A stretch of DNA of 64,000 nucleotides from Streptomyces sp. NBC_01723 (GTDB lineage: Bacteria; Actinomycetota; Actinomycetes; Streptomycetales; Streptomycetaceae): the NCBI RefSeq assembly GCF_036246005.1, contig NZ_CP109171.1, positions 7,056,001 to 7,120,000 of the forward strand, written 5' to 3'. This document shows, piece by piece, positions 5,414 to 21,500 of the stretch (within the stretch, counting starts at the first letter, position 1; the number at the start of each line of letters is the position of its first letter). A program made the translations under genes and the position numbers. The notes under the pieces are model-generated. The model was not told the DNA's origin. It saw only the letters and a list, made by a program, of their open reading frames with translations, and made no database searches.

Positions 5414-6916
5414 ATGTCGAAAGACGTGCACGGACCCAGGGTGACTGTCGAAGGCGGCACCGTGGAAGGCCGTTTGCGTGAAGGTGTCGTTTCCTTCCTG
5501 GGAGTCCCGTACGCCGCGCCACCTTTTGGGGCGAACAAGATGCGGCCCCCGCAGCCGGTGGTTCCGTGGCAGGGCTTCCGCGACGCGGATCGCATGGGGC
5601 CGACAGTGCCGAAGGGGGACTACCCGCCTGCCATCCGGCGGCTCTTCCCCGAGGTGGAGATCGAGGGGGAGGAGTGCCTCAATCTCAACGTATGGACGCC
5701 CGACCCGGAGGTAAGCGGCCTTCCAGCGCTGGTGTGGATCCACGGAGGCTCGTTCGCCAACGGCTCCAATTCCGTGGCGGCGTACGACGGGTCGGCCTTC
5801 GCGCGTAGCGGCGTGGTCTGCGTGACGATCAACTACCGGCTCGCCGCGGAGGGTTTCCTCTTCCTCGGCGACAGTCTGGCTAACCTCGGCCTGCAGGACC
5901 AGGTGGCCGCGCTGGAATGGGTGCGGGACAACATCGCTGCCTTCGGTGGTGATCCCGGGAACGTGACGGTCGCGGGGGAGTCTGCCGGTGCGATGAGCGT
6001 GGCCACCCTGCTGGCGATGCCGTGCGCGGCCGGGTTGTTCGTCCGCGCCATCACGCAGTCCGGCGCCGCCGCCCACACGCTCACCGCCGAGCAGGGGCTG
6101 GTGGTCGGCAGCCTGCTGGCCGAAGTACTCGAAGTGCCGGCCACCAGGGTCGCCATCGCAGCCATTCCGCAAGACCGGCTCAGGCATGCCGCTTCCGAGG
6201 TGGTCACGGAGGTCCAGCTCGGGAGCGCGCCCGACAAGTGGGGAAGTCTGGGCCTGAGAGGGCTGCCGTTCGCGCCGGTGGTCGACGGCACCGTCTTGCC
6301 GGTTCATCCGCTGGAAGCCGCTCGCGTCGGGGCCGGAGTCCCGGTTCCGCTGCTGACAGGCTGGACCCGCGACGAGAATCGCTTGGGCCTCGTGGCCATG
6401 AACATGCTGGACGTGATAGAGGAATCCACCTTGCTCGCCGAGGCGACGGGCTACGGGCTCGGGCCGGAAGGGGTGGCGATCTACCGCGCCGCGCGCCCCG
6501 GTGCGACCCCTGGCGACCTGCTCGCGGCGATCGGCACCGACTGGTCCTACGCTCTTCCGGCCCTCCAGTACGCCGAAGCCCGCATCGCCGGGGGTGCCGG
6601 GCCCACCTGGGTGTACCGCTTCGACCATCTGGAGCCCGCCGACAACCACGGCTTCGGGTCGTGCCACGCGACGGAGGTGCCGTTCGTCTTCCGGACTGAG
6701 AACCACGACAGCGTACGAGCCCTCATCGGAGACCACCCCTCGCCGACGACAGCCGCCACAGCACACGAGGCGTGGGTGTCCTTCGCGCGGAAGGGCACGC
6801 CCGGCTGGGAGCCCTATGACCTGACCCGTCGCACCATGGCTCTGATCGGGGAGAAAATTCGCGTGGTCGACGATGCCGCCCCCGACGAGCGTCACGCCTG
6901 GGGCGGCATCCTCTAG
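5414..6916 (+). CDS. Carboxylesterase type B
   Basis: 500 residues, normal length for the type B (acetylcholinesterase-like) carboxylesterase family. ATG 5414 follows TAGGAG with good spacing. Visible features are FLGVPYAAPPFG near the N-terminus, EECLNLNVWTP, the oxyanion-hole motif WIHGGSF (~109-114), the nucleophile elbow GESAGAMS (Ser ~190), TRDENRL and the catalytic-His region GSCHATEVPFVF. There is no signal peptide, so it is probably cytoplasmic. It hydrolyses carboxylic esters; the substrate cannot be read from sequence. An IS630 sits exactly at its stop codon but leaves the reading frame and the TAG unchanged. Confidence 0.93.
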   Translation: MSKDVHGPRVTVEGGTVEGRLREGVVSFLGVPYAAPPFGANKMRPPQPVVPWQGFRDADRMGPTVPKGDYPPAIRRLFPEVEIEGEECLNLNVWTPDPEVSGLPALVWIHGGSFANGSNSVAAYDGSAFARSGVVCVTINYRLAAEGFLFLGDSLANLGLQDQVAALEWVRDNIAAFGGDPGNVTVAGESAGAMSVATLLAMPCAAGLFVRAITQSGAAAHTLTAEQGLVVGSLLAEVLEVPATRVAIAAIPQDRLRHAASEVVTEVQLGSAPDKWGSLGLRGLPFAPVVDGTVLPVHPLEAARVGAGVPVPLLTGWTRDENRLGLVAMNMLDVIEESTLLAEATGYGLGPEGVAIYRAARPGATPGDLLAAIGTDWSYALPALQYAEARIAGGAGPTWVYRFDHLEPADNHGFGSCHATEVPFVFRTENHDSVRALIGDHPSPTTAATAHEAWVSFARKGTPGWEPYDLTRRTMALIGEKIRVVDDAAPDERHAWGGIL

Positions 6917-8004
6917 TCTTCTGAGTCGGGAATTCTGTTCAGATAGTTGGCGAGGCGTTCGAGGATCTCGTCCGCGGTCTTGGTCCAGACGTAGGGCCTG
7001 GGATCGGTGTTCCATGCGGCGGTCCAGGTCCGGATGTCCTTCTCCAGGGCCTGGACGCTTCTGTGGACGCCTCGCCGTATCTGCTTGCTCGTCAGCTCGG
7101 CGAACCACCGTTCGACCAGGTTGAGCCAGGACGAGCCGGTAGGCGTGAAGTGCAGGTGGAAGCGGGGGTGAGTCAGCAGCCAGGTCTTGATGGCCGGGGT
7201 CTTGTGGGTGGCGTAGTTGTCCAGCACCAGGTGCACGTCCAGGTCTGCCGGTATCGCCTGGTCGAGTTTGATCAGGAACTTCTTGAACTCCTCGGCACGG
7301 TGCCGGCGGTGCAGGGAGCCGATCACCTTGCCGGTGGCCACCTCGAGAGCGGCGAACAATGTGGTGGTGCCCGCGCGCACGTAGTCGTGGGTGAGGCGCT
7401 GCGGGACGCCGGGCATCATCGGCAGCACCGGCTGGGAGCGGTCAAGGGCCTGGATCTGCGACTTCTCGTCGACGCAGAACACCAGGGCCTTCTCGGGCGG
7501 GTCCAGATAGAGGCCGACGACCTCGTGGACCTTGTCGACGAAGTACGGGTCCGTGGACAGCTTGAAGGTCTCGGTGCGGTGCGGCTGCAGGCCGAAGGCC
7601 CGCCAGATCCGTGACACGGTCGACTGCGACAGGCCCATCTCCTTCGCCATCGCCCGCGTCGACCAGTGCGTGGCGTTCTTCGGCGTCGACTCGAGCGTCC
7701 GCTTCACCACCGCAGCGACCTGCTCGTCGGTGACCGTCCGGGGGCCGCCCGGGCGCGGCATGTCACCCAGCCCGGCGATCCGGTGCCCGACGAACCGCTT
7801 CCGCCAGCGGCCCACCGCATGCGGCGTGGAGCCCAACTGCGCGGCCACGTCTTTGTTCGACGCGCCTGTCGCGCAGGCCAGGATGATCCGACACCGCAAA
7901 GCCCACGCCTGCGGGGTGGAACGGCGCCGCACCCATCCCTCCAGCGCAGCCCGTTCCGCATCCGACAGGATCAACTCGGCCTTCGGCCGCCCAGTACGCG
8001 CCAC
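6913..8004 (-). CDS. IS630-family transposase
   Basis: 363 residues with an N-terminal helix-turn-helix half (NKDVAAQLGSTPHAVGRWRK and a second HTH around LSQSTVSRIW) and a C-terminal DDE domain. The acidic triad is visible as FCVDEKSQ, LVLDNYATHK and SSWLNLVERWFAE. It looks complete and active. The TA of its TAG stop codon is the target-site duplication and the G is host DNA (6913), so where translation ends depends on the insertion site. It overlaps the convergent esterase by 4 bases. Confidence 0.96.
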   Translation of the reverse strand: MARTGRPKAELILSDAERAALEGWVRRRSTPQAWALRCRIILACATGASNKDVAAQLGSTPHAVGRWRKRFVGHRIAGLGDMPRPGGPRTVTDEQVAAVVKRTLESTPKNATHWSTRAMAKEMGLSQSTVSRIWRAFGLQPHRTETFKLSTDPYFVDKVHEVVGLYLDPPEKALVFCVDEKSQIQALDRSQPVLPMMPGVPQRLTHDYVRAGTTTLFAALEVATGKVIGSLHRRHRAEEFKKFLIKLDQAIPADLDVHLVLDNYATHKTPAIKTWLLTHPRFHLHFTPTGSSWLNLVERWFAELTSKQIRRGVHRSVQALEKDIRTWTAAWNTDPRPYVWTKTADEILERLANYLNRIPDSED

Positions 8005-9135: not shown

Positions 9136-9159
9136 GTGAGGACTGCGCCCCGTTCGCTC

Positions 9160-9331
9160 CCGCGCCCACAGCGCGCTTCCACGGACGGGACGCAAGCTCG
9201 GCCTGGTGCCGTTCGTGCCACAACGGGCCGAGCTCTGCGACCAGGTCAGCGATCACGTTGGCCAGCAGGCCCGTGATTCTCCGGTCGCTGATGATCGCTG
9301 CACGAGGTGCGTTCCCCTCGTTACTGTAGTG
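9160..9331 (-). pseudogene. Transposase N-terminal fragment beside the Tn3 left end
   Basis: On the minus strand a frame ending in RAVGAGA (through ISDRRITGLLANVIADL and AELGPLWHERHQAELA) resembles the N-terminal region of Streptomyces IS5-group transposases. It stops dead at the left terminal repeat of the Tn3-family transposon (9332), with no continuation on the other side of that transposon. Treated as an IS remnant cut by rearrangement. Confidence 0.5.
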
Positions 9332-9381
9332 GGCCCGGTTCTCGTATAGCTGCCGCCAGATGGCGAGTAACACTGAGTAAC
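9332..9381 (+). repeat. Left terminal inverted repeat of the Tn3-family transposon
   Basis: 50 bases beginning GGCCCGGTTCTCGTATAGCT and ending AACACTGAGTAAC. It matches the complement of 19980-20029 at 49 of 50 positions (A here, G there, in CCAGATGG). It is longer than the classical 38-bp Tn3 repeat. Confidence 0.93.
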
Positions 9382-9473
9382 CCTTTGGCAACGGATTGGA
9401 TCTAACCGCTTCGCTTCTACCGGCAGGTCGCCACGCTATGGCGATCATCCGATTCGGAGCGAGGAGTGCGCGG

Positions 9474-12400
9474 GTGCGGCAGGACTGGGAGCCGGAGGAC
9501 CTCATCGAGGTCTGGACGCTGCTCGAAGACGACATGAAGCGGCTGCGGAACAAGTCCGGGGCGAATCGGCTGGGCTTCGCGGTGCTGCTGAAGTTCTTCG
9601 AGGTGGAGGCCCGCTTTCCGGAGACCGAGCGTGAAGTCCCGGCTGCCGCGGTGGGTTACGTGGCCCAGCAGGTGAAGGTGTCGGCGGACCAGTGGGCGGC
9701 GTACGACTGGCAGGGCGACCGGATCAAGCGGCACCGCAAGGAGATCCGCAAAGCCTTCGGGTTCCGGGCGGGCACGGAGGAGGACCAGGAGCGGCTGGCC
9801 GAGTGGCTGACGGCCGAGCTGTGCGGGGTGGAACTGTCGCGTGACCGGCTGGTGGAGGCGGTGCTGGCCCGCTGCCGCAACGACTTCGTTGAGCCGCCGG
9901 CTCCGGCCAAGGTGCGGCGCCTGGAGGGCAAGGCGGTCAGGGACTTCGATGCGCGGTTCTGCCGTACCACCGTGGACCGGCTGTCCCACGCGACCCGCTC
10001 GCGGCTGGAGGACCTGGTCGCGGGCCGGGAAGACGGCGAGGAGACGGTTGAGGACCAGGCGGTGGCCGGGGGCGGCCGGTCGTTCTCCACCGAACTCAAG
10101 GCCGACCCGGGAGCTCCGGGGCTGGAGAGTTTGTTCGCGGAGGTGGACAAGCTCCAGCGGGTGCGGAAACTGGAGCTTCCGGCCGATCTGTTCGCGGATG
10201 TGTCGGAGAAGCAGGTGGACGCCTGGCGGGCGCGGGCGGCGAAGGAGTACCCGGCGAACCTGGAGCGGATGAAGCCGCCGATGCGTCTGACTCTGCTGGC
10301 CGCTCTGTGCCATGTGCGGCACACCGAGATCACCGACTCGCTGGTGGAGCTGTTCATCCAGCTGGTGCTGAAGATCAACACTCGGGCGGAGAAGAAGGTA
10401 GACAAGGAGATGACCGGCGAGCTGAAGAAGGTGCGGGGCAAGGAGGCGATGATGCTGCGGGTCGCCGAGGCGGCCTTGTCCGAGCCGTCGGGCTCGGTCC
10501 GCAAGGTGATCTACCCGGTGGTCGGCGGGGAGAAGACGTTGAAGGCACTTGCCGCGGAGGCTGCGGCGAACGAGGCCAAGTACAAGGCGCGTATCCGCAC
10601 CGTGCTGCGCTCGGCGTACTCGGCGCACTGGCGGCGGATGCTCACCCCGTTGTTGAAGGCGTTGACGCTCAAGTGCAACAACACCGCCTACCGGCCGGTG
10701 ATGGACGCCATCGACCTGCTCCAGCGCTACCTGGAGCAGCCGCTGAAGGAGGGCGCGTTCTTCGACGCGGCGGAGTCCGTACCGCTGGAGGGTGTGGTGC
10801 CCGATCAGTGGCGGGCCGCGGTGGTGGACGACAAGGGCCGTGTCGAGCGCATCCCCTACGAGCTGTGCGTGCTGGTGTCCCTGCGCGAGGCGTTGCGGCG
10901 CCGGGAGATATGGGTGGTGGGGGCGAACCGGTGGCGCAACCCGGAGGACGACCTGCCGCAGGATTTCGAGGACAACCGGGACGTGCACTACGACGCGATC
11001 CAAAAGCCCCAGGACCCGGCGAAGTTCATCGCGGAGTTGCAGAGGACGCACCGCGAGGCCCTGGACCGGTTCGAGGCCGCGCTGGCCGGCGACACCACGG
11101 GCGGGGTGGCGATCGTGAAGAAGAACGGCGAGGGATGGGTCAAGGTCTCGCCGCGGCCCAAGCAGGAGGAACCGGAGAGCTTGGTCGCGGTGAAGGGGGA
11201 GATCGAACGGCGTTGGGGCACCATCGATCTGCTGGACATCTTGAAGTACGCGGAGTTCGACACCGACTTCATCGCCGAGTTCACCACGGTGGCCACCCGC
11301 GAGAACCTGTCCCGGGAAGTGCTCCGGAGAAGGCTGCTCTTGGTCCTGTTCGGACTGGGCACGAACATGGGGATCAAGCGTGTCGCGGCGACGGGCAAGC
11401 ACGGTGAGTCGGAGGCGACGCTGCGCCGGGTGCGGCACCTGTTCGTGAACCGGGCCAACATGCGCGCGGCCCTGGTGAAGCTGGTCAACGCCACCTTCGC
11501 GGCCCGCGACGAGATGTGGTGGGGCACCGGGACGGCGTGCGCCTCCGACAGCCGCAAGTTCGGCGCGTGGTCGTCCAACTTCATGACGGAGTGGCACCAG
11601 CGCTATCGGGGCCCGGGGGTCATGATCTATTGGCACGTGGAACGAAAATCGGTGTGCATCTACAGCCAGCTGAAGTTCTGTTCGGCCTCCGAGGTCGCCT
11701 CGATGATCGAGGGCGTGCTGCGGCACTGCACCGACATGGAGGTCGACCGGCAGTACACCGACACCCATGGCGCCTCCATCGTCGGGTTCGCCTTCGCGCA
11801 CATGCTCGACTTCAAGCTGATGCCGAGGCTGAGGAACATCGGACGGGCGAGGCTGTACCGGCCGGCCGCGGGCGAGGACAGGAACTGGCCGCACCTGGCC
11901 CCGGTGCTCTCCACCCGCACCATCGACTGGGACCTCATCGCCCAGCAGTACGACCAGATCGTGAAGTACACCACCGCCCTGCGGCTGGGCACCGCTGAGG
12001 CCGAGCAGGTCCTGCGCCGCCTTACCAAGGGCGGCCCCAAGCACCCGACCTACCAGGCGATCGAGGAGCTGGGGCGCGTGGTGCGCACGGCGTTCATCTG
12101 TGACTATCTGTCGGATGTGGAGATGCGCAAGGAGATCGGCGAGGGCTTGCAGGTGGTGGAGAACTGGAACTCGGCGAACTACGACCTGTTCTACGGCAAG
12201 GACGGCGACCTGACGGGTGCGGACAAGGAGAGCCAGGAGGTCTCGATGCTCGCCCTGCACCTTTTGCAGAGCAGTCTCGTGCATGTGAATACGTTGCTTG
12301 TACAGCAGGTTTTGGCCGACCCGAAGTGGGCGGACACGCTCACCGAGGCGGACCGGCGGGGGCTGTCACCGCTGTTCTGGACCCACGTGAACCCGTACGG

Positions 12401-12512
12401 CCGGTTCGAACTGGATATGAGCAGCCGCCTTGACCTGGACCTTGCGGCCACTGGGGCCACGGTGCCCGGCCCGCGCAGTCCACAAGACGAGCCGGTCGGC
12501 ACTCCGAGCTGA
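9474..12512 (+). CDS. tnpA: Tn3-family transposase
   Basis: About 1,012 residues, full length for the family. GTG 9474 is preferred because GGAG lies 7 bases upstream and the protein then starts [20 protein letters not shown] as relatives do; ATG 9438 is an alternative. The N-terminal third is the DNA-binding region and the C-terminal ~400 residues the Tn3 DDE domain. Acidic motifs include [32 protein letters not shown] and the later [15 protein letters not shown]. It catalyses cointegrate formation at the terminal repeats. There are no frameshifts, so it is probably active. Confidence 0.95.
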
Positions 12513-12520
12513 GCCGGCAA

Positions 12521-12556
12521 GGACGGAGGTAGCCCCCTTTCGGGCTGCCCCCGTCC
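12521..12556 (+). terminator. Rho-independent-like hairpin after tnpA
   Basis: A 15-bp stem (GGACGGAGGTAGCCC pairing with GGGCTGCCCCCGTCC, two G-T wobbles) with a short CCTTTC loop begins 9 bases after the transposase stop. There is no strong T-run, as is usual in Streptomyces. Confidence 0.75.
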
Positions 12557-12917
12557 GGTGCGTCCCGGGGTCCGGGGTCCGGACCAGGAAACCGGTGTTG
12601 CTGTCAACAGATTTGACAGGCCGTGGTCCGGGCCGCGCCACCAGGACGGATGCGTGCCGGCCGTAGCGCCGTACGCGATGGATGTGACGAACAGCAGACG
12701 AGCGGGGCATCCTGAGCGGCATGGACTTTCAGCTGGTCGAGCGCGCCGGTTGCGTTCCAGTAGTCACTGACCACCGGGGAGATCGGGGCACGGGGATGTA
12801 CAAAAACGGCTTCCGCGTGGCCCTGCCGGGGCGGGAGTGAGCCGGGGCTGGACGGCGATCGGCCCGGCGGCGCAGGGGGCTGACAGCCTCTGCCGGGGTA
12901 TCGCCAGTCATCCCGCG
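12557..12917. other. Spacer between tnpA and the exporter operon
   Basis: No recognised gene. It holds a perfect short palindrome TGTCAACAGATTTGACA (about 12601-12617) that could be an operator. There is also a 39-codon frame at 12721-12840 (starts MDFQLVERAGCVPVV) with no clear ribosome site, left uncalled. Confidence 0.4.
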
Positions 12918-13274
12918 TCAGGATTCATCTCCTTGGCGCCCCCTTTCCTTGGAGACGGGGTTGTACTTGAGGCACTTGGTCACGGCGTCCGGCGGTAGCA
13001 CGGAACCCATGGCGAGGCCGCCCTGGGTTTCATCGACCTTGACGCCCTGGGCTCCGTTCTGGTTCAGGCAGTCCGCGTACTTGCGCATGGACTCGAGCCA
13101 GCCGTCCGGCAGGTCGGGCGTCTGCCCGTTTCCGGCCTGCATCCCTCCGGAGGGATGTTCCTGCGGTGTCGGCCGGTCGTCGGGACTCTTGGAGTCGCCC
13201 GAACCGCTGGCGCAGGCGGTCAGGGCGAGGGCGAAGACCAGAGCGGGCGCTGCCAGCAGCGCGCGTGTGTTCAT
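12918..13274 (-). CDS. Small secreted lipoprotein of the exporter operon
   Basis: 118 residues. The N-terminus is a lipoprotein signal ([20 protein letters not shown] then Cys; lipobox LTAC), followed by a polar Ser/Gly/Pro-rich linker. A short domain follows with ESMRKYADCLNQNG and DAVTKCLKY, a Tyr-x-x-Cys pattern seen in small extracytoplasmic partners of actinobacterial ABC exporters. It is the last gene of the operon and its ATG overlaps the ATPase stop by 4 bases (ATGA). Probably membrane-anchored outside the cell; its exact role is unknown. Confidence 0.8.
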   Translation of the reverse strand: MNTRALLAAPALVFALALTACASGSGDSKSPDDRPTPQEHPSGGMQAGNGQTPDLPDGWLESMRKYADCLNQNGAQGVKVDETQGGLAMGSVLPPDAVTKCLKYNPVSKERGRQGDES

Positions 13275-13978
13275 CGGGTGTTCACCTGTTCCGTGAGCTT
13301 GCCCTTGCGCAGGTTGAGAATGCGGTCGGACTGAACAGCCAGCTGCTGGGAGTGAGTGACGACGACCACGCACTTGCCCTGCTCATGAGCGAGTTCGCGG
13401 AAGGTGTCGATGATGCCCTGGGCGGTGTCCTCGTCGAGATTTCCGGTGGGTTCGTCGGCGAAGAGAATGTCGACGTCGCAGGCGAGGGTGCGGGCGATGG
13501 CGACGCGCTGCTGCTGGCCGCCGGAGAGCTGCAGCACGTTACGGGTAGCCATCGCCTTGTCGAGACCGATCTTCTCCAGCAGGTGCAAGGCGCGGGCCTT
13601 GCGGCTTCCGGTCGCGGGTTTGGCACCGGTGATCTCCATCGCGCAGGTGACGTTCTGGAGGGCGGTCATGTAGGTGAGGAGGTTGTACTGCTGGAAGATC
13701 GTGGCGGCGTGCCTGTTGCGGTAGCGGCCGAGACCCAGCTTGGTGAGGTCCTGGCCGTCGAAGCTGATCGTGCCGTGGGTGGGGGTGTCGAGGCCGCTGG
13801 CGAGGCTGAGCAGGGTGGTCTTGCCGCTGCCCGAGGGGCCCAGGATGGTGTAGAAAGTGCCGCGTTCGAAGACGTAGTCGATGCTCTTGAGGACCGTGGT
13901 CCTGCGGCGCTGGCCGGAATAGGTGTGGCTGACGCCGGCGAGGTGCAGGACGGGCGGGGTGGTGGCGGCGGTGGTCAT
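13271..13978 (-). CDS. ABC transporter ATP-binding protein (MacB/LolD type)
   Basis: 235 residues with every ATPase motif: Walker A GPSGSGKT (47-54), Q-loop IFQQYNLL, signature LSGGQQQR (151-158), Walker B ILFADEPT (171-178) and the H-loop His ~209. The sequence type ([31 protein letters not shown]) belongs to ATPases that pair with FtsX-fold permeases for export or mechanotransmission. It lies between the permease gene (6-base gap) and the lipoprotein gene (4-base overlap), so it is the energy subunit of this complex. Confidence 0.96.
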
Positions 13979-13984
13979 GGCGGG

Positions 13985-15364
13985 TCACTTGCCCTTCGTG
14001 AGGATGGTGCGGGGGCTCAGGCGCAGCACGGCGCCGGCGGGGATGGCGGTGGCAAGGAGGCCGATGCCGAGGCCGACACCGCCGACGGTGGCGAGGTCCG
14101 CCGGGTCGAGTGCCACGGTGATCTTGCCGATGGGGTCGGCGTTCTCGACGGGCTTGTCGTTCGGGTCGATGCCCTCGCCGAGGCCGGTGCTGCCGGGAGG
14201 CGGGGCCTGCCAAGAGTCGATCTTGTGCTCGGCGGCGGTGGCTTCCTTGCCGAGCAGCGCCTGGCCGGCGCTCTGGGTCAGGTTCGGAGCGAACAGGGAA
14301 CTCAGGCCGATGGCTACGGCGGCGACGACGACGATCTCCAGGGCCTGTTGGGCGATGAGCTTGCTCTTCTTCTCGCCCATGGCCAGCAGGACGCCGTACT
14401 CCTTGCAGCGCTGCTTGACGGCGAGGTTGACCAGGAGGGCTAGGACGGCTGCGCCGGCGATGCCCATGAGCCACATGGCGACGGTGGCGGTGGAGCGGAT
14501 GCTCTTGAGCGGGCCTGTCATCTGCTGGATGGCCTTGTCGTTGGCGTCCAGTTTGAAGCCCTTGAGCGCCGAGCCGGCGATGTGCTTCGCCTCCTTCTTG
14601 AACGCGCTCTGCACGTCGGCGTCCTGGAGGAGGAAGGTTGCGTGGCCTACCTGCGGTGATCCGTTGCCTTCGGAGTTGAGGGCGGACATGCCGCCCACCG
14701 TTCCGTACAGCATGTTGGCCGGGTTGATGCCGTATTCGGCGTCGGGTTCGGTGGTGGGGCGCGGGTCGCGGTAGATGCCGGTCACGGTGAAGTCGGCCGT
14801 GGTCTTTTCGTCGTTGCCGGTCAGGGTGATCTTGTCGCCGGCCGTGAGGCCGTTCTTCTTGGCCAGGCGCTCCTCGATCAGGAGTTGCTTTTTGTCCTTG
14901 TCGGCGGCTGTGAGGTGCTTACCGGACAGGAGGGTGAACTTGCCGCTGCGGAAGTCGGGCAGCAGCGTGGAGTCGAGCACGCCCATGCCCACGGTTCCGC
15001 CGGGGCCCATGGGGTCGGCCGGGCCTCCCTCGACCAGCTTGTACTTGCCCTTGACGATGGCGCGGTCCCACATCGAGTAGGTGTACTTCTGCACCTGGGG
15101 CAGAGCCCCGAGCTTGTCGACGGTCGCCGCGTCGATGCGCGGGGCCTGCAGGCCGCCGCCACTGCCCCGTTGGCTGGTGTCCATGTCGAGGTTGACCTCG
15201 GCGCCCACGGAGAGCTTGGCGTTCTGCTCGGCCTGGGCCGTCGCGTCGTTGATCAGGACCCCGGCCAGCACCATCACGGAGATGACGAGGAAGGTGGCGA
15301 GGGTGATCAGGGTGCGGCCCTTGCGGGCCCACAGGCTGAGCCCTGCGCGTTTGACGAAATTCAT
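13985..15364 (-). CDS. FtsX/MacB-type ABC transporter permease
   Basis: 459 residues. A first membrane segment (~17-39, RTLITLATFLVISVMVLAGVL) is followed by a ~260-residue extracytoplasmic domain (LSVGAEVNLDMD to about PLKSIRSTA) and three C-terminal membrane segments (WLMGIAGAAVLALLVNLAVK, IVVVAAVAIGLSSLF, VGGVGLGIGLLATAIPAGAVL), the MacB/FtsX layout. The cytoplasmic loop KQRCKEYGVLLAMGEKKSKL is the usual ATPase-coupling segment. It is a close paralogue of the next permease (both begin MNFVKRAG), suggesting a heterodimer. Confidence 0.92.
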   Translation of the reverse strand: MNFVKRAGLSLWARKGRTLITLATFLVISVMVLAGVLINDATAQAEQNAKLSVGAEVNLDMDTSQRGSGGGLQAPRIDAATVDKLGALPQVQKYTYSMWDRAIVKGKYKLVEGGPADPMGPGGTVGMGVLDSTLLPDFRSGKFTLLSGKHLTAADKDKKQLLIEERLAKKNGLTAGDKITLTGNDEKTTADFTVTGIYRDPRPTTEPDAEYGINPANMLYGTVGGMSALNSEGNGSPQVGHATFLLQDADVQSAFKKEAKHIAGSALKGFKLDANDKAIQQMTGPLKSIRSTATVAMWLMGIAGAAVLALLVNLAVKQRCKEYGVLLAMGEKKSKLIAQQALEIVVVAAVAIGLSSLFAPNLTQSAGQALLGKEATAAEHKIDSWQAPPPGSTGLGEGIDPNDKPVENADPIGKITVALDPADLATVGGVGLGIGLLATAIPAGAVLRLSPRTILTKGK

Positions 15365-15450
15365 GGGGATTGGCTCTCTCGGTCCGGGCCATGGGATGGC
15401 TGTTCGGGAGTTGGTGACCAGTTGCGCGGTGGTGGGCCGACTAGTCGGTG

Positions 15451-16716
15451 TCAGCGAGGAATGGAGCGGGGGTGCAGGCGCAGGATCCCGATTCCCGGGA
15501 TGACGGTGGAGACCAGGGAGATCCCGAGCCCGATGCCGGCGACCTTGCCGACAGTGGTCGGCTCGACCCGCACCGTGGGCGGAGCGATCTCGGCATCTTG
15601 TGCCCCGGCCGCCGCGACCGGCTTGCCGTTGTGGCCGCCCAGGAGCGCGTCACCCGCGGCCTGTCCGGCGAGCGAGCCCGCCAGGGCAGCGAGCGCGACG
15701 GCGGGCAGGGCCACGGCCGCCACCTCCACGGCGTGCTGACCGATGAGCTTCCACTTCTTCTCGCCCATCGAAAGCAGCACCCCGAGCTCGGGGCGCCGCT
15801 CGCGGATCTGCAGCACCACGATGAGACCGAGGATCAGCGCACCGGCCAGGGCGATCACCCAGATGATCAGTCCCGCGAACGTGCCGACCTGCTGGATGGG
15901 TCGGACCTGGTCCCGATACGCCTTGTCATTGACGCGGAAGTCGAAACTGCCCTTGCCGAGGAGCCGCTCGGCCTCGGCGTGCAGCTGCTCGGCCTGCCCC
16001 GGTGATCCGATCTTGAACACCGTCTCGCTGACCGTCGCGGTACCGGTACCGAGCTCCTGCGCGATGCCCACCGGTACGTACAGTGCGTTGCCGGGCAGTT
16101 CATGCGGCGGCTTCCACGCCGTCGGATCCTGCGTCGGGTCCTGGAAGACACCGACGACCTCCAGGGCCACCGTGCGCTTGCCGTCCGCGGAGCGCACCCG
16201 GACGGTGTCGCCGACCTTGAGGTGGTTCTTGTCGGCCAGGCGCTGCTCGATCACTGCGACGCTGCGGCCTGCGTCCTTGGGGGTGATGCCGCGGCCCGCC
16301 GTGATTCTCGTCGAGCCGTAGGAGAAGGGCAGCAGCATGCCCGAGTCACGGACGCCGTTAACGGCCAGAGGACCCGGATCCTCGCTCCCGGCACTGTTGC
16401 CGCCCGGCCTTGGTGCGTCCGACGTCAGCGGCGTGAAGCCACGCGCCCCGGCCCGCATCGGAAGCTCCGGGTTGTAGCGGTGCACCAGGTCGAAGGTGCC
16501 GAGCCGGTCAGCCAGGGCCGGGGTGAGGTTCTTCTTCTTGACGGTCACGTCGACGCCGATGGTGCGCTGCGCGTCGGCTTCCTGGCGGGCGGCGGCGGCC
16601 TGCAGCAGGAAACCGCCGAGGAGCAGGGTGCAGATGACGACGAAGATCGCCAGCAGGGCGGCGGTCTTTGACTTTCTGGCACCAAGGCTCATCCCGGCGC
16701 GCTTGACGAAGTTCAT
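15451..16716 (-). CDS. FtsX/MacB-type ABC transporter permease (second subunit)
   Basis: 421 residues from ATG 16716, which gives the MNFVKRAGMSLGARKSKT start shared with its paralogue. One N-terminal membrane segment, a large external domain, and three C-terminal segments (LIIWVIALAGALILGLIVVLQ, VAAVALPAVALAALAGSLAG, VAGIGLGISLVSTVIPGIGIL) with the coupling loop RERRPELGVLLSMGEKKWKL. It is the first gene of the four-gene operon. The start lies 25 bases from an operator-like repeat (16742-16775) shared with the divergent regulator gene. Confidence 0.92.
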   Translation of the reverse strand: MNFVKRAGMSLGARKSKTAALLAIFVVICTLLLGGFLLQAAAARQEADAQRTIGVDVTVKKKNLTPALADRLGTFDLVHRYNPELPMRAGARGFTPLTSDAPRPGGNSAGSEDPGPLAVNGVRDSGMLLPFSYGSTRITAGRGITPKDAGRSVAVIEQRLADKNHLKVGDTVRVRSADGKRTVALEVVGVFQDPTQDPTAWKPPHELPGNALYVPVGIAQELGTGTATVSETVFKIGSPGQAEQLHAEAERLLGKGSFDFRVNDKAYRDQVRPIQQVGTFAGLIIWVIALAGALILGLIVVLQIRERRPELGVLLSMGEKKWKLIGQHAVEVAAVALPAVALAALAGSLAGQAAGDALLGGHNGKPVAAAGAQDAEIAPPTVRVEPTTVGKVAGIGLGISLVSTVIPGIGILRLHPRSIPR

Positions 16717-16741
16717 GCCGAAGACCCAAGCAGCCTGCCGT

Positions 16742-16775
16742 TTGCAGCAGGATAAGCGTGTTACAGCGGCATAAG
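16742..16775 (-). promoter_or_regulatory. Operator-like direct repeat upstream of the exporter operon
   Basis: Two copies of one motif, TTGCAGCAGGATAAG (16742-16756) and TTACAGCGGCATAAG (16761-16775), lie 19 bases apart and end 25 bases before the first exporter start codon. A third copy in the opposite orientation lies the same distance from the response-regulator start. Direct repeats are the usual form of OmpR-family regulator sites, so these are likely targets of the transposon's own regulator. Confidence 0.65.
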
Positions 16776-16885
16776 GGCCCGCCTGGCCCTGATCTTGGCT
16801 GTCGAGGGCGCCGACTTCGACCCGGCCGTCTTCACCGGCTGCCTCGGTACAGCGCCGGCCGGCTCGGAGCACGCCGCCCCGCGCC

Positions 16886-16900
16886 CTTATCCGGCTGCAA
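16886..16900 (+). promoter_or_regulatory. Matching operator-like motif upstream of the response regulator
   Basis: CTTATCCGGCTGCAA is the complement of the exporter-side motif at 14 of 15 positions. It ends 24 bases before ATG 16925, mirroring the spacing on the exporter side. This suggests that one factor controls both divergent units. Confidence 0.65.
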
Positions 16901-16924
16901 TCGTGATCTTGGTTTCTTGGGGGT

Positions 16925-17587
16925 ATGAGAGTTCTGGTAGCCGAGGACCACCATGTCCTCGCCCGCACCATCGCCACCGGCCTGCGCCGACAGGCGATGG
17001 CCGTCGACATCGCCGCCACCGGTGATCAGGCCGAGCGAATGTGTCTGCTCACCGCCTACGACGTGCTGATCCTCGACCGCGACCTGCCGGTCATGACCGG
17101 CGACGAGGTGTGCATGCGGCTGCGGGAACTCCAGGACCCTCCGCGGATCCTGATGCTGACCGCCGCCGGCGAGCTCACGGACAAGATCCACGGCCTCACC
17201 GCGCTCGGCGCCGACGACTACCTGCCCAAGCCCTTCGACTTCACCGAGCTCGTCGCCCGCGTACGGGCCCTGAGCCGTCGCGCACCAAAGCCGCCGCCCA
17301 CCGTGCTGCGCTTCGGGAGCATCACCCTGGACGAGACACGGCACGAAGTATCCGTGGACGGCCGCCCGCTGGAACTCACACCGAAGGAGTTCGCGGTCCT
17401 GCACCTGCTGCTTGCGGCCGGCGGCGCGCCGGTGCCGCACGACGAGCTCGTCCGCACCGTCTGGGACGAGCACCTCGACCCACGCACCAGCGCGGTCCGC
17501 GCCACCGTCAGCAGGTTGCGCGGCAAACTCGGCGACCCCGGCCTGATTGCCGCCGACAATGGAGAGGGATACCGGCTGTGCGAATGA
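16925..17587 (+). CDS. OmpR-family response regulator
   Basis: 220 residues. Receiver domain 1-115: MRVLVAEDHH, phospho-acceptor Asp51 in DVLILDRDLPVMTG, MLTAAG, and the invariant Lys in YLPKPFDF. Winged-helix domain 125-220: LDETRHEVSVDGRPLELTPKEFAVL, the recognition helix TSAVRATVSRLRGKL and the wing DNGEGYRL. It is phosphorylated by the kinase encoded just downstream (ATGA overlap) and probably activates the divergent exporter genes. GTATG at the start has no strong ribosome site, so translation may be leaderless or weak. Confidence 0.95.
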   Translation: MRVLVAEDHHVLARTIATGLRRQAMAVDIAATGDQAERMCLLTAYDVLILDRDLPVMTGDEVCMRLRELQDPPRILMLTAAGELTDKIHGLTALGADDYLPKPFDFTELVARVRALSRRAPKPPPTVLRFGSITLDETRHEVSVDGRPLELTPKEFAVLHLLLAAGGAPVPHDELVRTVWDEHLDPRTSAVRATVSRLRGKLGDPGLIAADNGEGYRLCE

Positions 17588-18768
17588 AGCTCCGGGCACT
17601 GCTGAGCCGGCTGCCATTCCGCGCCCGCCTGGCAGCGGCCATCTCCGGACTCTTTTTGCTGGCCGGCATCGCCCTGCTCGCCTTCGTGGTGCTGCTCGCA
17701 CGCTACGGAACGGCCCAGCAGGTCCAGGGAATGTCAATCACGTACGGGGACGTGCCGAGCAGCGCTGCGACACCCTTCGAGCCTGCACGCCCCAGTCAGC
17801 CGGATCTCAAGCCTCCGGCCCCGAGCGACGTCGCCATGATCCAGAAGATCGACCAGACCGTGCAGGCCGTCCAGGACACCGCGCTGCGCCAGATGGTGCT
17901 CTGGTCCGCCGTCGGACTGCTGATCACCGCGCTCCTCACCGGGCTGCTCGGCTGGTGGCTCGCGGGTCGGGCACTGCGTCCCGTCGCCTTCATGACCGAA
18001 GCCGCCCGCCGCATCAGCGACCAGAACCTGCATCAGCGCCTGGCGCTCGTCGGCCCCGACGACGAACTCCACCGCCTCGCCGACACCTTCGACACCATGC
18101 TCGACCGGCTCGAGAAGTCCTTCGAGAGCCAACGCCGCTTCGTCGCCAACGCATCCCACGAACTCAAGACACCGCTCGCCGCCCAGCGCACCACCCTCCA
18201 GGTCGGCCTCGCCGACCCCCTCCCCGAGAGCCTCGCCGACGTCCGCGAGGACCTGCTCACCACCAACCGCGAAGCCGAACAGCTCATCGACGCGCTCCTG
18301 CTGCTCGCCCGCAGCGACCGCGGCCTGGAAGAGACCGAGAGCGTGGACCTCACGGTCACCGCCCGGCTCGTGACCGCCGAGCTCACCCCGCAGGCATCGG
18401 CCCACGGCGTGCACATCGACCTCAGCGCCGACACCCCACTGGTCGTTCGCGGCGATCCTGTCCTGCTGCGCCACCTGCTGACGAACCTGATCCACAACGC
18501 CGTCCAGTACAACCACCCCGGCGGCCACGTCCGCGTACGACTCGAAGCCCTCACCGTGACGGTGACCAACACCGGCCCCCACGTGCCCGCCGAACGGATC
18601 CCGGACCTCTTCGAGCCCTTCCGACGCCTCGACGCGGACCGCACCGCCACTACCGGCCACGGCCTGGGACTGTCCATCGCCGCGTCCATCGTCGACGCCC
18701 ACAACGGCACGCTGACGGCGCAACCCGGCGCCGATGGAGGGCTCGCCCTCACCTTGCGCTTCCCCTGA
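17584..18768 (+). CDS. Sensor histidine kinase
   Basis: 394 residues. TM1 ~17-39, a short external loop of ~65 residues rich in Pro/Ser (likely ligand region), TM2 ~105-127, HAMP (~128-180), dimerisation/His box VANASHELKTPLAA (His192), N-box LLTNLIHNAVQYN, then a G-box TTGHGLGLSIAASIV. It is a complete kinase. The small sensing loop and the adjacent MacB-type exporter are the pattern of systems that respond to envelope-active peptides or antibiotics. That inference comes from context, not from a bound ligand seen here. Confidence 0.95.
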   Translation: MKLRALLSRLPFRARLAAAISGLFLLAGIALLAFVVLLARYGTAQQVQGMSITYGDVPSSAATPFEPARPSQPDLKPPAPSDVAMIQKIDQTVQAVQDTALRQMVLWSAVGLLITALLTGLLGWWLAGRALRPVAFMTEAARRISDQNLHQRLALVGPDDELHRLADTFDTMLDRLEKSFESQRRFVANASHELKTPLAAQRTTLQVGLADPLPESLADVREDLLTTNREAEQLIDALLLLARSDRGLEETESVDLTVTARLVTAELTPQASAHGVHIDLSADTPLVVRGDPVLLRHLLTNLIHNAVQYNHPGGHVRVRLEALTVTVTNTGPHVPAERIPDLFEPFRRLDADRTATTGHGLGLSIAASIVDAHNGTLTAQPGADGGLALTLRFP

Positions 18769-19002
18769 GCGCCTGCGATGGCAGAAGCACCAGCGCCGCA
18801 TCTCGCAGGTGATCTTCCGCAGAGATAGGCAAGGGCCAGAGCTGCACGCGCAGCCACTGTCACAAATGGTCCTTTGCCCGAGCAAGATCAAATAGAGCCG
18901 CGCGGAGATCACCGAGAACCGGATCGGTTCGCAGAAGCCGTTCTCGCTCAAGAGTGCTCGGAGGGCAGTTCTGCGACTTGAGCTGTGCGAAAATCTGGGG
19001 TC
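18769..19002. promoter_or_regulatory. Candidate res (resolution) site upstream of the resolvase
   Basis: This 234-bp non-coding gap just upstream of the resolvase gene is where Tn3-family res sites lie. It holds several dyads: AACCGGATCGGTT (perfect, ~18917-18929), GAGAAC...GTTCTC spanning about 18914-18945, and TTCTGCGACTTGAGCTGTGC near 18969-18988. Subsites cannot be assigned by eye. Confidence 0.5.
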
Positions 19003-19980
19003 ATGACGGGCCCTCAAGAGCCTTCCTCCACCACCGCGTCGGAAGCCGATCTCGTCGAACGCCATCCGTGCCCGAAGTGCAAGGCAGCCCCCGGGTCTCC
19101 GTGCCGCTCGCGCTCCGGCGCGGTCGCATCCGCGTACCACACCGGCCGCTTCACCAAGGTGCCCAAGCTCAACAAGGAACTGCGGGTGCAGACGCCGGCC
19201 GACCGCGGGCCCGGCCAGCCGTGGCGGCCCGGCAAACCGGTCCCCGCGGCCATCGACCCCAACCTGCCGAGCGCGGACATCCGCGTCGGCTACGCCCGTT
19301 GCTCGACGCTCGGGCAGGAACTCGACTCGCAGCTGGACGCGCTCGCCAAGCACGGCATCCCTCGGGAGAAGATCTTCAGCGAGAAGATCAGCACCCGGAT
19401 CAAGGTCCGCCCCCAGTTCGAACAGGCGCTGAAGACCGCCTGGGAGATCAAGGCGCACGCCCCGCACTGCCGGGTCCTGTTCACGGTGTACGAGATGAAG
19501 CGTCTCGGACGCGACGCCGCGGAGCTCACCGCGCTGGCCGACCACCTCACCGAGCACGGCCTGGTGCTGGAGATGCTCGCCGGACCGCTGCCCGGCATCT
19601 ACGACCCCACCGGGCCGGGCAAGCTTCTCTTCGGGTTCTTCGCGGCCATGGCCGAGACCGAGCGGGAGAACATCCGCGAATCGACGCTGGAGGGGCTCGA
19701 CACCGCGGCCCGCAAGGGCAAGTACGGCGGCCGGCCCCCGGTCATCACCGACGACATGCTCCACACCGTGCTCCGCCGCAAGGCGCTCGGCGAGTCCGTC
19801 GAACAGATCCAGCCCGACCTGATCATCCCCACAGGCAAGCGCAAGGGCCTGGCTCCCAGCGTCGCCAGCATCTACCGGGCCCTCGCCGAACACGAGAAGC
19901 GTGAGGCATACCCCGAAGCCATCGAGGCGGCCCGCGACGACTTCGCCGCTCTTCAGCAGCGCGACCACCGCCCCGTGTAG
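19003..19980 (+). CDS. tnpR: Serine resolvase with an N-terminal Cys/His extension
   Basis: 325 residues from ATG 19003 (GTG 18985 is an alternative). The catalytic domain starts at ~93 with VGYARCSTLGQELDSQ (nucleophile Ser ~101) and continues with VYEMKRLGRDAAEL and MAETERENIRESTLEGL, ending in a C-terminal HTH-like region (VASIYRALAEHEK). Ahead of it are ~90 residues with a CPKCx7C...H pattern (Cys23, Cys26, Cys34, His46), a likely metal-binding module not found in classical TnpR. It resolves cointegrates at res. The TAG stop abuts the right terminal repeat. Confidence 0.92.
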   Translation: MTGPQEPSSTTASEADLVERHPCPKCKAAPGSPCRSRSGAVASAYHTGRFTKVPKLNKELRVQTPADRGPGQPWRPGKPVPAAIDPNLPSADIRVGYARCSTLGQELDSQLDALAKHGIPREKIFSEKISTRIKVRPQFEQALKTAWEIKAHAPHCRVLFTVYEMKRLGRDAAELTALADHLTEHGLVLEMLAGPLPGIYDPTGPGKLLFGFFAAMAETERENIRESTLEGLDTAARKGKYGGRPPVITDDMLHTVLRRKALGESVEQIQPDLIIPTGKRKGLAPSVASIYRALAEHEKREAYPEAIEAARDDFAALQQRDHRPV

Positions 19981-20029
19981 TTACTCAGTGTTACTCGCCA
20001 CCTGGCGGCAGCTATACGAGAACCGGGCC
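19980..20029 (-). repeat. Right terminal inverted repeat of the Tn3-family transposon
   Basis: Complement of 9332-9381 with one mismatch. It begins at the last base of the resolvase stop codon and ends at the junction with a truncated ISL3 transposase. Confidence 0.93.
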
Positions 20030-21134
20030 TTGTTGCGCATCGCTCTGCCCACCAGGCAGGTGCCGCGCGTGATCGGGGTCGACGACTTCGCCCTGCGCCG
20101 GCGCCACCGCTATGCCACCGTGGTGATCGACGCCGAAACCCACGAGCGGATCGACGTTCTTGCCGACCGCACGGCCGACAACCTGGAGGTGTGGCTGCGC
20201 GAGCATCCGGGCGTCGAGATCGTGTGCCGGAATGGCTCGGCGACGTATGCCGAGGCCATCCGCCGTGCGCTGCCTGATGCGGTACAGGTTGGCGACCGCT
20301 GGCATTTATGGAAGAACCTGTGTGAAGCGGCCCTGAGCGAAGTAAGAGCCCACAGCACCTGCTGGGCCACCGTACTGGACGCACCCCCTCCATGACGGGC
20401 CCCGCGCACAGACCACCCTGGAACGGTGGCACCAGGTTCACGCTCTGCTCGACCAGGGTGTGGGCCTGCTCGAATGCGCCCGCCGCCTGCAACTGGCCCT
20501 GAACACCGTCACACGCTACGCCCGCGCCGACCAGCCCGAGCGCATGCTCCGCGTCCCCAAATACCGTGCCAGCCTCGTCGACCCCCACCGCGAACACCTT
20601 CGCAAACGCCGCGCCGGGGACCCCGCCGTTCCCGTCCCGCACCTCTTCGAAGAGATCAAATCCCTCGGTCTCACCGGCTGCCTCAACCTCCTGCACAAGT
20701 ACATCAACCAAGGCCGCGCCGATGCCGACCGCAGCCATATCTCCGCACGGCGACTCGCCCGGATGCTGCTCACCAGACCCGACAACCTCAAAGCTGAGCA
20801 ACGACAGCTGCTGGACCGCCTCACCGCGGCCTGCCCCGAAATGACTCAACTGGCAGTGTCCATCCCAGCTTTCGCCCAGCTCCCGAAGCCTCAGCCAGCA
20901 AATGTCGACGCGCTCGAACTCTGGATCACCCAGATCCGCGCAGCCGATCTGCCACACCTGCACACCTTCACCCAGGGGCTGGAGCGAGACCTCGACGCTG
21001 TGATCGCCGCGTTCACGCTCCGCTACAGCAACGGACCCACCGAGGGCGTGAACACGAAGACCAAGCGCATCGCACGCCAGATGCACGGGCGAGCAGGCTT
21101 CAATCTCCTCCGCCACCGCATCCTCCTCGGATAG
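20030..21134 (+). pseudogene. ISL3-family transposase, 5'-truncated and frameshifted
   Basis: From the transposon edge the frame reads LLRIALPTRQVPRVIGVDDFALRRR..., the middle of an ISL3 DDE domain (first Asp in VIGVDD, second in VQVGDRWHLWKN). It meets a stop near 20395. The remainder continues in another frame from about 20400 (LERWHQVHALL) through NGPTEGVNTKTKRI (catalytic Glu) and RHRILLG to a stop at 21134. The N-terminal zinc-finger/HTH third is missing and does not appear on the left side of the Tn3 transposon. Not functional. Confidence 0.88.
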
Positions 21135-21149
21135 AACCACTCTGCGTCA

Positions 21150-21500
21150 CCACCGAAGGTGAGACAGGACCGTTAGATTTACACTCCCGATCGAGGCCGC
21201 CCGCACCGTCTGCCACGAGATGACTGTCCTGACCGACCTCATCCACCACGTCGCCGTGCTGCTGAATCCCACCGACGGCAATGCCACCCTGCTGAGTACC
21301 TGGATCACCTCGGCCCGGGCCGAGGACCTGCCCCACCTGCATGCCTTCATCCGTGGCCTCGAGAAGGACCGAGCCGCAGTCGACGCCGCCCTCACCCTGC
21401 CGCACCGAAGGCGTCAACAACAAAACCAAGCTGATCAAGCGCCAGATATACGGCCCCGCGAGCTTCCCTCACCTCCCCCACCGCATCCTCGCGGGCTGAC
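21150..21500 (+). pseudogene. Second ISL3-type 3' remnant
   Basis: A degenerate copy of the ISL3 C-terminal region: LSTWITSARAEDLPHLHAF and IRGLEKDRAAVDAALTL (21290-21400), then in another frame TEGVNNKTKLIKRQIYG and HRILAG up to ~21500. The sequences after the two ISL3 stops are also alike (both end near GATTTACA), so these are two related elements in tandem, both decayed. Confidence 0.7.

Follow-up and report, generated by a model that had tools for sequence, protein, structure and literature searches.

We analysed a window of 64,000 nucleotides (positions 7056001-7120000 of contig C1, NZ_CP109171.1) from Streptomyces sp. NBC_01723, whose genome of 8.85 Mb consists of two contigs. The window contains a Tn3-family element of 10,698 bp (9332-20029), and we consider it likely that this element belongs to a cargo-varying group of Tn3-type transposons and has captured a sensor-controlled exporter module. 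Judged from its sequence, the element is most likely a mobile, self-contained and autoregulated (inducible) exporter. The evidence comes from the anatomy of the element, the ends that it shares with copies mobile in other genomes, the relatedness and gene order of the module, and a conserved box before the exporter genes. The features are the following (window coordinates).

9332-9381, + strand: left terminal inverted repeat, 50 bp; its first 20 bp were used as a degenerate search pattern.
9438-12512, + strand: tnpA, Tn3-family transposase, 1024 aa (NCBIfam model and PDB relative).
12918-13274, - strand: small lipoprotein, 118 aa, final gene of the exporter operon (lipobox LTAC by eye).
13271-13978, - strand: ABC ATPase, 235 aa, RapX position (PF00005).
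13985-15364, - strand: FtsX-type permease 2, 459 aa, OrfW relative (PF02687).
15451-16716, - strand: FtsX/MacB-PCD permease 1, 421 aa, OrfV position (PF02687 and PF12704).
16750-16775, - strand: conserved box, direct repeat of 19-bp period, lying 34-59 bp ahead of the exporter operon; a candidate operator for the response regulator.
16886-16902, + strand: one related box, ahead of the response regulator gene (spacer comparison).
16925-17587, + strand: OmpR-type response regulator, 220 aa, RapR position (PF00072 and PF00486).
17584-18768, + strand: sensor histidine kinase, 394 aa, RapS relative, with two hydrophobic regions flanking a short extracytoplasmic part.
18856-19002, + strand: block before tnpR shared with other copies; presumed to be the res site and to bound the cargo slot on the right.
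18985-19980, + strand: tnpR, serine resolvase with an N-terminal zinc-finger domain (PF00239 and PF24623); the true start may be 19003.
19980-20029, - strand: right terminal inverted repeat, 50 bp.
20030-21171, + strand, outside the element: transposase gene of ISL3 type, truncated by the transposon end and lacking its 5' part.
9153-9317, - strand, outside the element: transposase remnant, IS5-type by eye.

The two terminal repeats are complementary at 49 of their 50 positions (98%), and in the genome of this strain the exact 20-bp end pattern was found once per strand, both times at the termini of the element. TnpA passed the NCBIfam model transpos_Tn3 (NF033527) with 797.6 bits against a cut-off of 500, its PF01526 match spans the full profile, and its relative in the PDB is the TnpA of Tn4430 (E 6e-61). 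By its type of TnpA and its long terminal inverted repeats, the element is thus a member of the Tn3 family. Every frame of its genes is open. After tnpA come the lipoprotein-ATPase-permease-permease operon on the minus strand (12918-16716), the divergent regulator and kinase genes on the plus strand (16925-18768) and tnpR. By eye, Walker, signature and H-loop motifs can be recognised in the ATPase, an H-box in the kinase and a phospho-acceptor region in the regulator. The first-pass annotation, made from the letters alone, had described 50-bp repeats enclosing a full tnpA and a serine resolvase gene, and between these a complete two-component system with, running the opposite way, a four-gene MacB/FtsX-type ABC exporter operon that includes a lipoprotein gene; we recovered the same coordinates and the same match of the repeats, along with open frames and the corresponding domains. 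In the resolvase, a phage-type zinc finger (PF24623) precedes the serine recombinase domain (PF00239), by eye in other copies too, which is to our knowledge an unusual order.

The ends of the element were then sought elsewhere. The degenerate 20-bp pattern occurred in 53 of 392 genomes of the genus (52 of the 380 of good quality; this strain included), and the backwards control occurred in none of the 392; allowing up to 3 mismatches made the pattern non-specific in one genome (51 places versus 19 for the backwards control). Thirteen of the 53 genomes have facing ends no more than 25 kb apart, 14 pairs in all; in the remaining 40 the ends are single or distant. A public genome collection held at least 120 stretches with the end pattern; the 80 listed came mostly from Streptomyces and some from other actinobacteria, with outliers such as one Pseudomonas contig. 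Perfect 5-bp duplications were seen in 16 of the 21 end-pair rows listed for the collected loci, or 14 of 19 distinct end pairs, since L195 and L208 repeat L054 and L098. L113, two overlapping rows of L135, L206 and the window element were without one. Two further pairs with a duplication (L295, GAGAC; G038, GACGG) bring the count to 16 of 21, and 15 of 20 independent end pairs have a perfect duplication when L204 and L205 are counted once and the window copy as a miss. L204 and L205 represent one insertion: the elements are identical, and so are their flanks over more than 500 bp in both directions, as far as sequence was compared. The first-pass annotation had named such copies with 5-bp duplications at other sites as the confirmation of mobility, and the platform is indeed mobile in other genomes, where the same ends carry other contents between target duplications. 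We found no existing name for this group, a Tn3-family unit transposon group with 50-bp ends that is apparently of Streptomyces; relatives of the ends and of the cargo alike are mostly from this genus.

Some copies are of interest in their own right. L204 and L205 are identical 13,783-bp copies in the chromosome (G179:C1) and in a 245-kb replicon (G179:C2) of one genome, with tnpA split by an insertion that carries tyrosine-recombinase-like genes (by eye). L054 (in G344), L096 and L062 are elements of 0.7-1.4 kb with both ends, perfect 5-bp duplications and no full tnpA; these internally deleted derivatives are possibly non-autonomous.

Alignment of eight copies to the window element located the region that varies. 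On the tnpA side, homology ends at window positions 12,434-12,500 in seven copies, and at 11,502 in L199, which has a shortened tnpA. On the resolvase side, it resumes at 18,853-18,861 in five of the eight (L198, L200, L201, L204 and L206) and at 18,993 in L295. At this restart lies a block, conserved across 15 aligned sequences with that of the window among them, that precedes tnpR and is presumably res; L199 carries another, distant resolvase (34% identity). By eye, the contents are VOC, SulP and MerR genes in L198, TetR genes in L199, an MBL-fold gene in L200, methyltransferase and CDF genes in L201, oxidoreductase genes in L206, an MFS gene in L047, and SDR and MarR genes in L295. As judged from these alignments, the stretch between tnpA and res/tnpR is a slot holding different genes in each complete copy examined, which reveals a Streptomyces Tn3 group with a recognisable cargo slot.

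The cargo of the window copy has relatives of another kind. In a search of the genus, 392 genomes were sought and 361 scored (31 left out), nearly all on a single candidate. Within the matches listed for the scored genomes, the whole element was found in its own genome only, and the cargo alone matched at 83-88% DNA identity over ~5.5 kb in G011, G160, G132 and G087. Ten of 20 fetched stretches (12-19.5 kb) hold the module (L038-L045, L055 and L056), L045 with only its ATPase and permease-2 end, at a contig end. From all ten sister loci tnpA, tnpR and the repeats were absent, and this was the same on repeating the search at E 1e-5 with no identity filter. One of the ten is a second module in the strain's own chromosome (C1:385111-390562), at 79% DNA identity to the transposon cargo. 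Because sister loci without tnpA, tnpR or ends were the rule, with one of them in the same chromosome, the cargo looks like a captured Streptomyces chromosomal module. The first-pass annotation had stated that the genes at the same locus in relatives without the ends, or ends belonging to an unrelated repeat, would speak against it; the module was indeed free of ends in the ten sister loci, but the ends here are genuine. We infer that this cargo was moved by transposition.

For the lipoprotein, nine database relatives were found, with an orthologue in L055 (50%); beside other modules there were, by eye, traces or nothing. Carriage of the module on plasmids was dropped as a candidate, since the plasmid collection gave no permease-2 match at E 1e-40. 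Dropped as well was a single element joining module and transposon in Streptomyces sp. AC512_CC834, where the two are ~130 kb apart on a 143-kb contig whose ends showed no exact overlap of 16-400 bp. That contig (L294/L295; 142,934 bp) carries a complete 5.8-kb platform copy (GAGAC duplication; SDR and MarR-type genes by eye) and, separately, a RapSR-type module.

The spacer between permease 1 and the regulator was aligned in 18 loci (window included). Before the exporter we observed a 24-bp box, CTTATGCCGCTGTAACACG-CTTATCC, a direct repeat with a period of 19 bp and with an extra unit in G021. When 52 genomes were searched with the pattern TTANNCNGNNGTNACRNSYTTATC, 16 of the 25 genomes with a module had an exact match, compared to none of the 27 others (26 without a permease-2 match, and G277, which was outside that permease-2 test); the backwards control gave 0. 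By position, all 18 box sites directly precede a permease 1 gene of the module; the genome studied here accounts for two, one per copy. The informative part of this search is the absence of the box elsewhere in the genomes searched. The box is a candidate operator to which the response regulator would bind, and its confinement to the module in these genomes makes inducer and target directly testable. The chromosomal copy at C1:385111-390562 has the same kind of box, and cross-regulation of the two copies is possible.

These data are consistent with the following working. The platform would have captured a rapS-rapR-orfV-orfW-rapX-type module plus a lipoprotein gene. The kinase may sense a compound or envelope stress, directly or via the exporter; the phosphorylated regulator would bind the 19-bp direct-repeat box before the exporter operon and the single box before its own gene, and switch on a LolD/MacB-like FtsX exporter, which would remove a hydrophobic or envelope-active molecule. 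The window copy itself may still be active. We also put forward, tentatively and as a rather doubtful extension, that the RapSR-type module is a portable single-locus regulon, with its own exporter as sole genomic target, that travels as a ready-made inducible export or self-protection cassette among clusters for natural products, chromosomes and a Tn3 platform with exchangeable cargo. Under this extension, the transposon copy would plug into the resident copy because both share the same kind of operator.

Several observations weigh against a mobile, self-contained exporter. The window copy has no 5-bp duplication (TAGTG on the left, TTGTT on the right), and a second platform with this cargo turned up neither among the matches listed for the 361 genomes nor in the plasmid collection nor in the 140 loci (8 kb at most) around ends. 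The mobile module proposed by the first-pass annotation is thus borne out for the Tn3 platform in other genomes, but for the window copy the duplication is lost and a second cargo-bearing copy was not seen. Just 13 of the 53 end-bearing genomes have their ends facing at close range, several platform copies have a broken tnpA, and the tnpR block is absent from two of the eight compared copies (L047 and L199). For the box, nine of the 25 module genomes lacked an exact match (sequence variants or contig breaks), and the pattern was built from the modules that it then finds, so that its presence there is by construction. Finally, rapR and rapS are, according to others cited in PMC12298158, negative regulators of rapamycin production, which an export-only role would not predict.

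The loss of the duplication and the source of the cargo both allow other explanations. On the right, the element is flanked by a transposase gene that we take to be of the ISL3 family and that lacks its 5' third: a gene of 414 codons in G013, 83% identical to it, runs ~430 bp beyond the junction position, and in the strain's own genome the ISL3-type match begins 2 bp before the junction. On the left is a 165-bp remnant, presumably of the IS5 family, which stops 14 bp before the repeat. The decay that the first-pass annotation saw in the surroundings was examined at these immediate flanks, with a remnant on one side and a truncated gene on the other. Adjacent deletions are known for replicative transposons. 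The transposon may have inserted into the ISL3-type element, and a deletion next to its left end would then have taken away part of the latter, which would explain the missing target duplication. Recombination between two different copies, with one end from each, would also abolish the duplication, and the flanks are indeed unrelated insertion sequence pieces; we nevertheless consider it unlikely, as this genome has a single pair of ends, and a search of the rest of it for the lost ISL3 part gave nothing but a paralogue at 69% and a match of 53 bp to its terminus. Both findings fit the deletion better, although copies since lost are a further possibility. As for the cargo, the second chromosomal module with its similar box might suggest a duplication from the strain's own copy, but this is very improbable: the two share only 79% DNA identity, and no lipoprotein gene was found beside the chromosomal module. 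Moreover, in a permease-2 tree (123 rows, quick method, branch support by Shimodaira-Hasegawa-like approximate likelihood ratio test only), the transposon copy groups with cluster P0001 (94% identical), and a branch with support 97 separates it from the chromosomal copy, which stands beside P0091. A recent duplication is largely refuted by this tree.

A further alternative concerns function. The module might serve envelope maintenance or lipoprotein or peptide handling, in a Vex- or LolCDE-like manner, with the two-component system reporting the state of the envelope. Consistent with this, the closest PDB chains of the ATPase are LolD, MacB, YbbA and BceA, permease 1 has a MacB_PCD domain (a sequence search at E 0.1 gave no solved relative for it), the operon includes a lipoprotein gene, and module relatives occur in many species. 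On the other hand, the module is sporadic, unlike a housekeeping system, with a permease-2 match in 13 of 41 relatives (this strain included), 11 of them at 57% identity or more, and one version of it travels with the rapamycin cluster. We regard envelope maintenance as possible but not probable, and inducible resistance or secretion, by analogy, as plausible.

Outside the element, at 6913-8004, lies a transposase gene (IS630-like by eye) with seven more matches at 92-99% identity in the same chromosome, one of them partial, which suggests recent activity.

Among known transposons, Tn1546 is a Tn3-family element whose vanRS-vanHAX cargo likewise has its own two-component system; that cargo remodels cell wall precursors, whereas the element described here carries an ABC exporter. 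A metal- or Van-type was considered and dropped for the two-component system of the window element, the best NCBIfam models (heavy-metal subfamilies, VanR-O and VanS-O) remaining below their cut-offs. In the open-licence literature, Tn4556 of Streptomyces fradiae alone turned up as a cargo-carrying Tn3 transposon of Streptomyces; TnXax1 of Xanthomonas was also listed. As described in PMC6403206, Tn4556 is a class II transposon of 6,625 bp with 38-bp ends and 5-bp duplications, tnpA at one end, a methyltransferase and an isoprenyl diphosphate transferase as cargo in the middle, and towards the other end a resolvase given as PF00589 on the opposite strand. The window element shares the layout tnpA-cargo-resolvase and differs from that description in its 50-bp ends, in a PF00239 zinc-finger resolvase on the tnpA strand and in its sensor-exporter cargo. 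Within the genomes and collections searched, the pairing of a transposon with this cargo was seen only here.

With regard to the cargo, BceRS-BceAB also combines a two-component system with an adjoining FtsX-type ABC transporter. BceAB has a single large BceB permease, and the BceS kinase has no extracytoplasmic domain. Compared with these features, the module has two shorter permeases (421 and 459 aa) and a kinase with an extracytoplasmic part of ~65 aa between hydrophobic regions at ~20-38 and 100-127, and membership in BceRS/BceAB was rejected. In MacB, ATPase and permease form one chain, whereas here they are separate genes. The closer relatives are those of the rapamycin cluster: permease 2 shares 83% identity with the OrfW proteins of S. 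hygroscopicus and S. rapamycinicus, and the kinase shares 79% with a kinase of S. rapamycinicus, whose contig has the same length (12,700,734) as that of OrfW, and with kinases of S. iranensis and strain OE57. The first-pass annotation had drawn an analogy with pairs responding to envelope-active peptides; a sensor with an FtsX-type exporter is indeed present, but the relatives with names speak for the export of natural products, or for regulation of that export, rather than for a peptide system of the BceRS/BceAB type. PMC12298158 gives the order rapS-rapR-orfV-orfW-rapX and proposes a role in export; in PMC7105598, a higher yield of rapamycin is tabulated together with a change in RapS. The genes for the kinase, the regulator, both FtsX permeases and the ATPase follow that reported order here and have sequence relatives, OrfW and the kinase being the two compared by identity. 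Rapamycin need not be the substrate here, because relatives of the module were found in many more species. The reported set adjoins a polyketide cluster, whereas here it is transposon cargo with an extra lipoprotein gene and no biosynthetic genes; an exporter and sensor module that the literature describes as accessory to the rapamycin cluster is now tied to a transposon platform.

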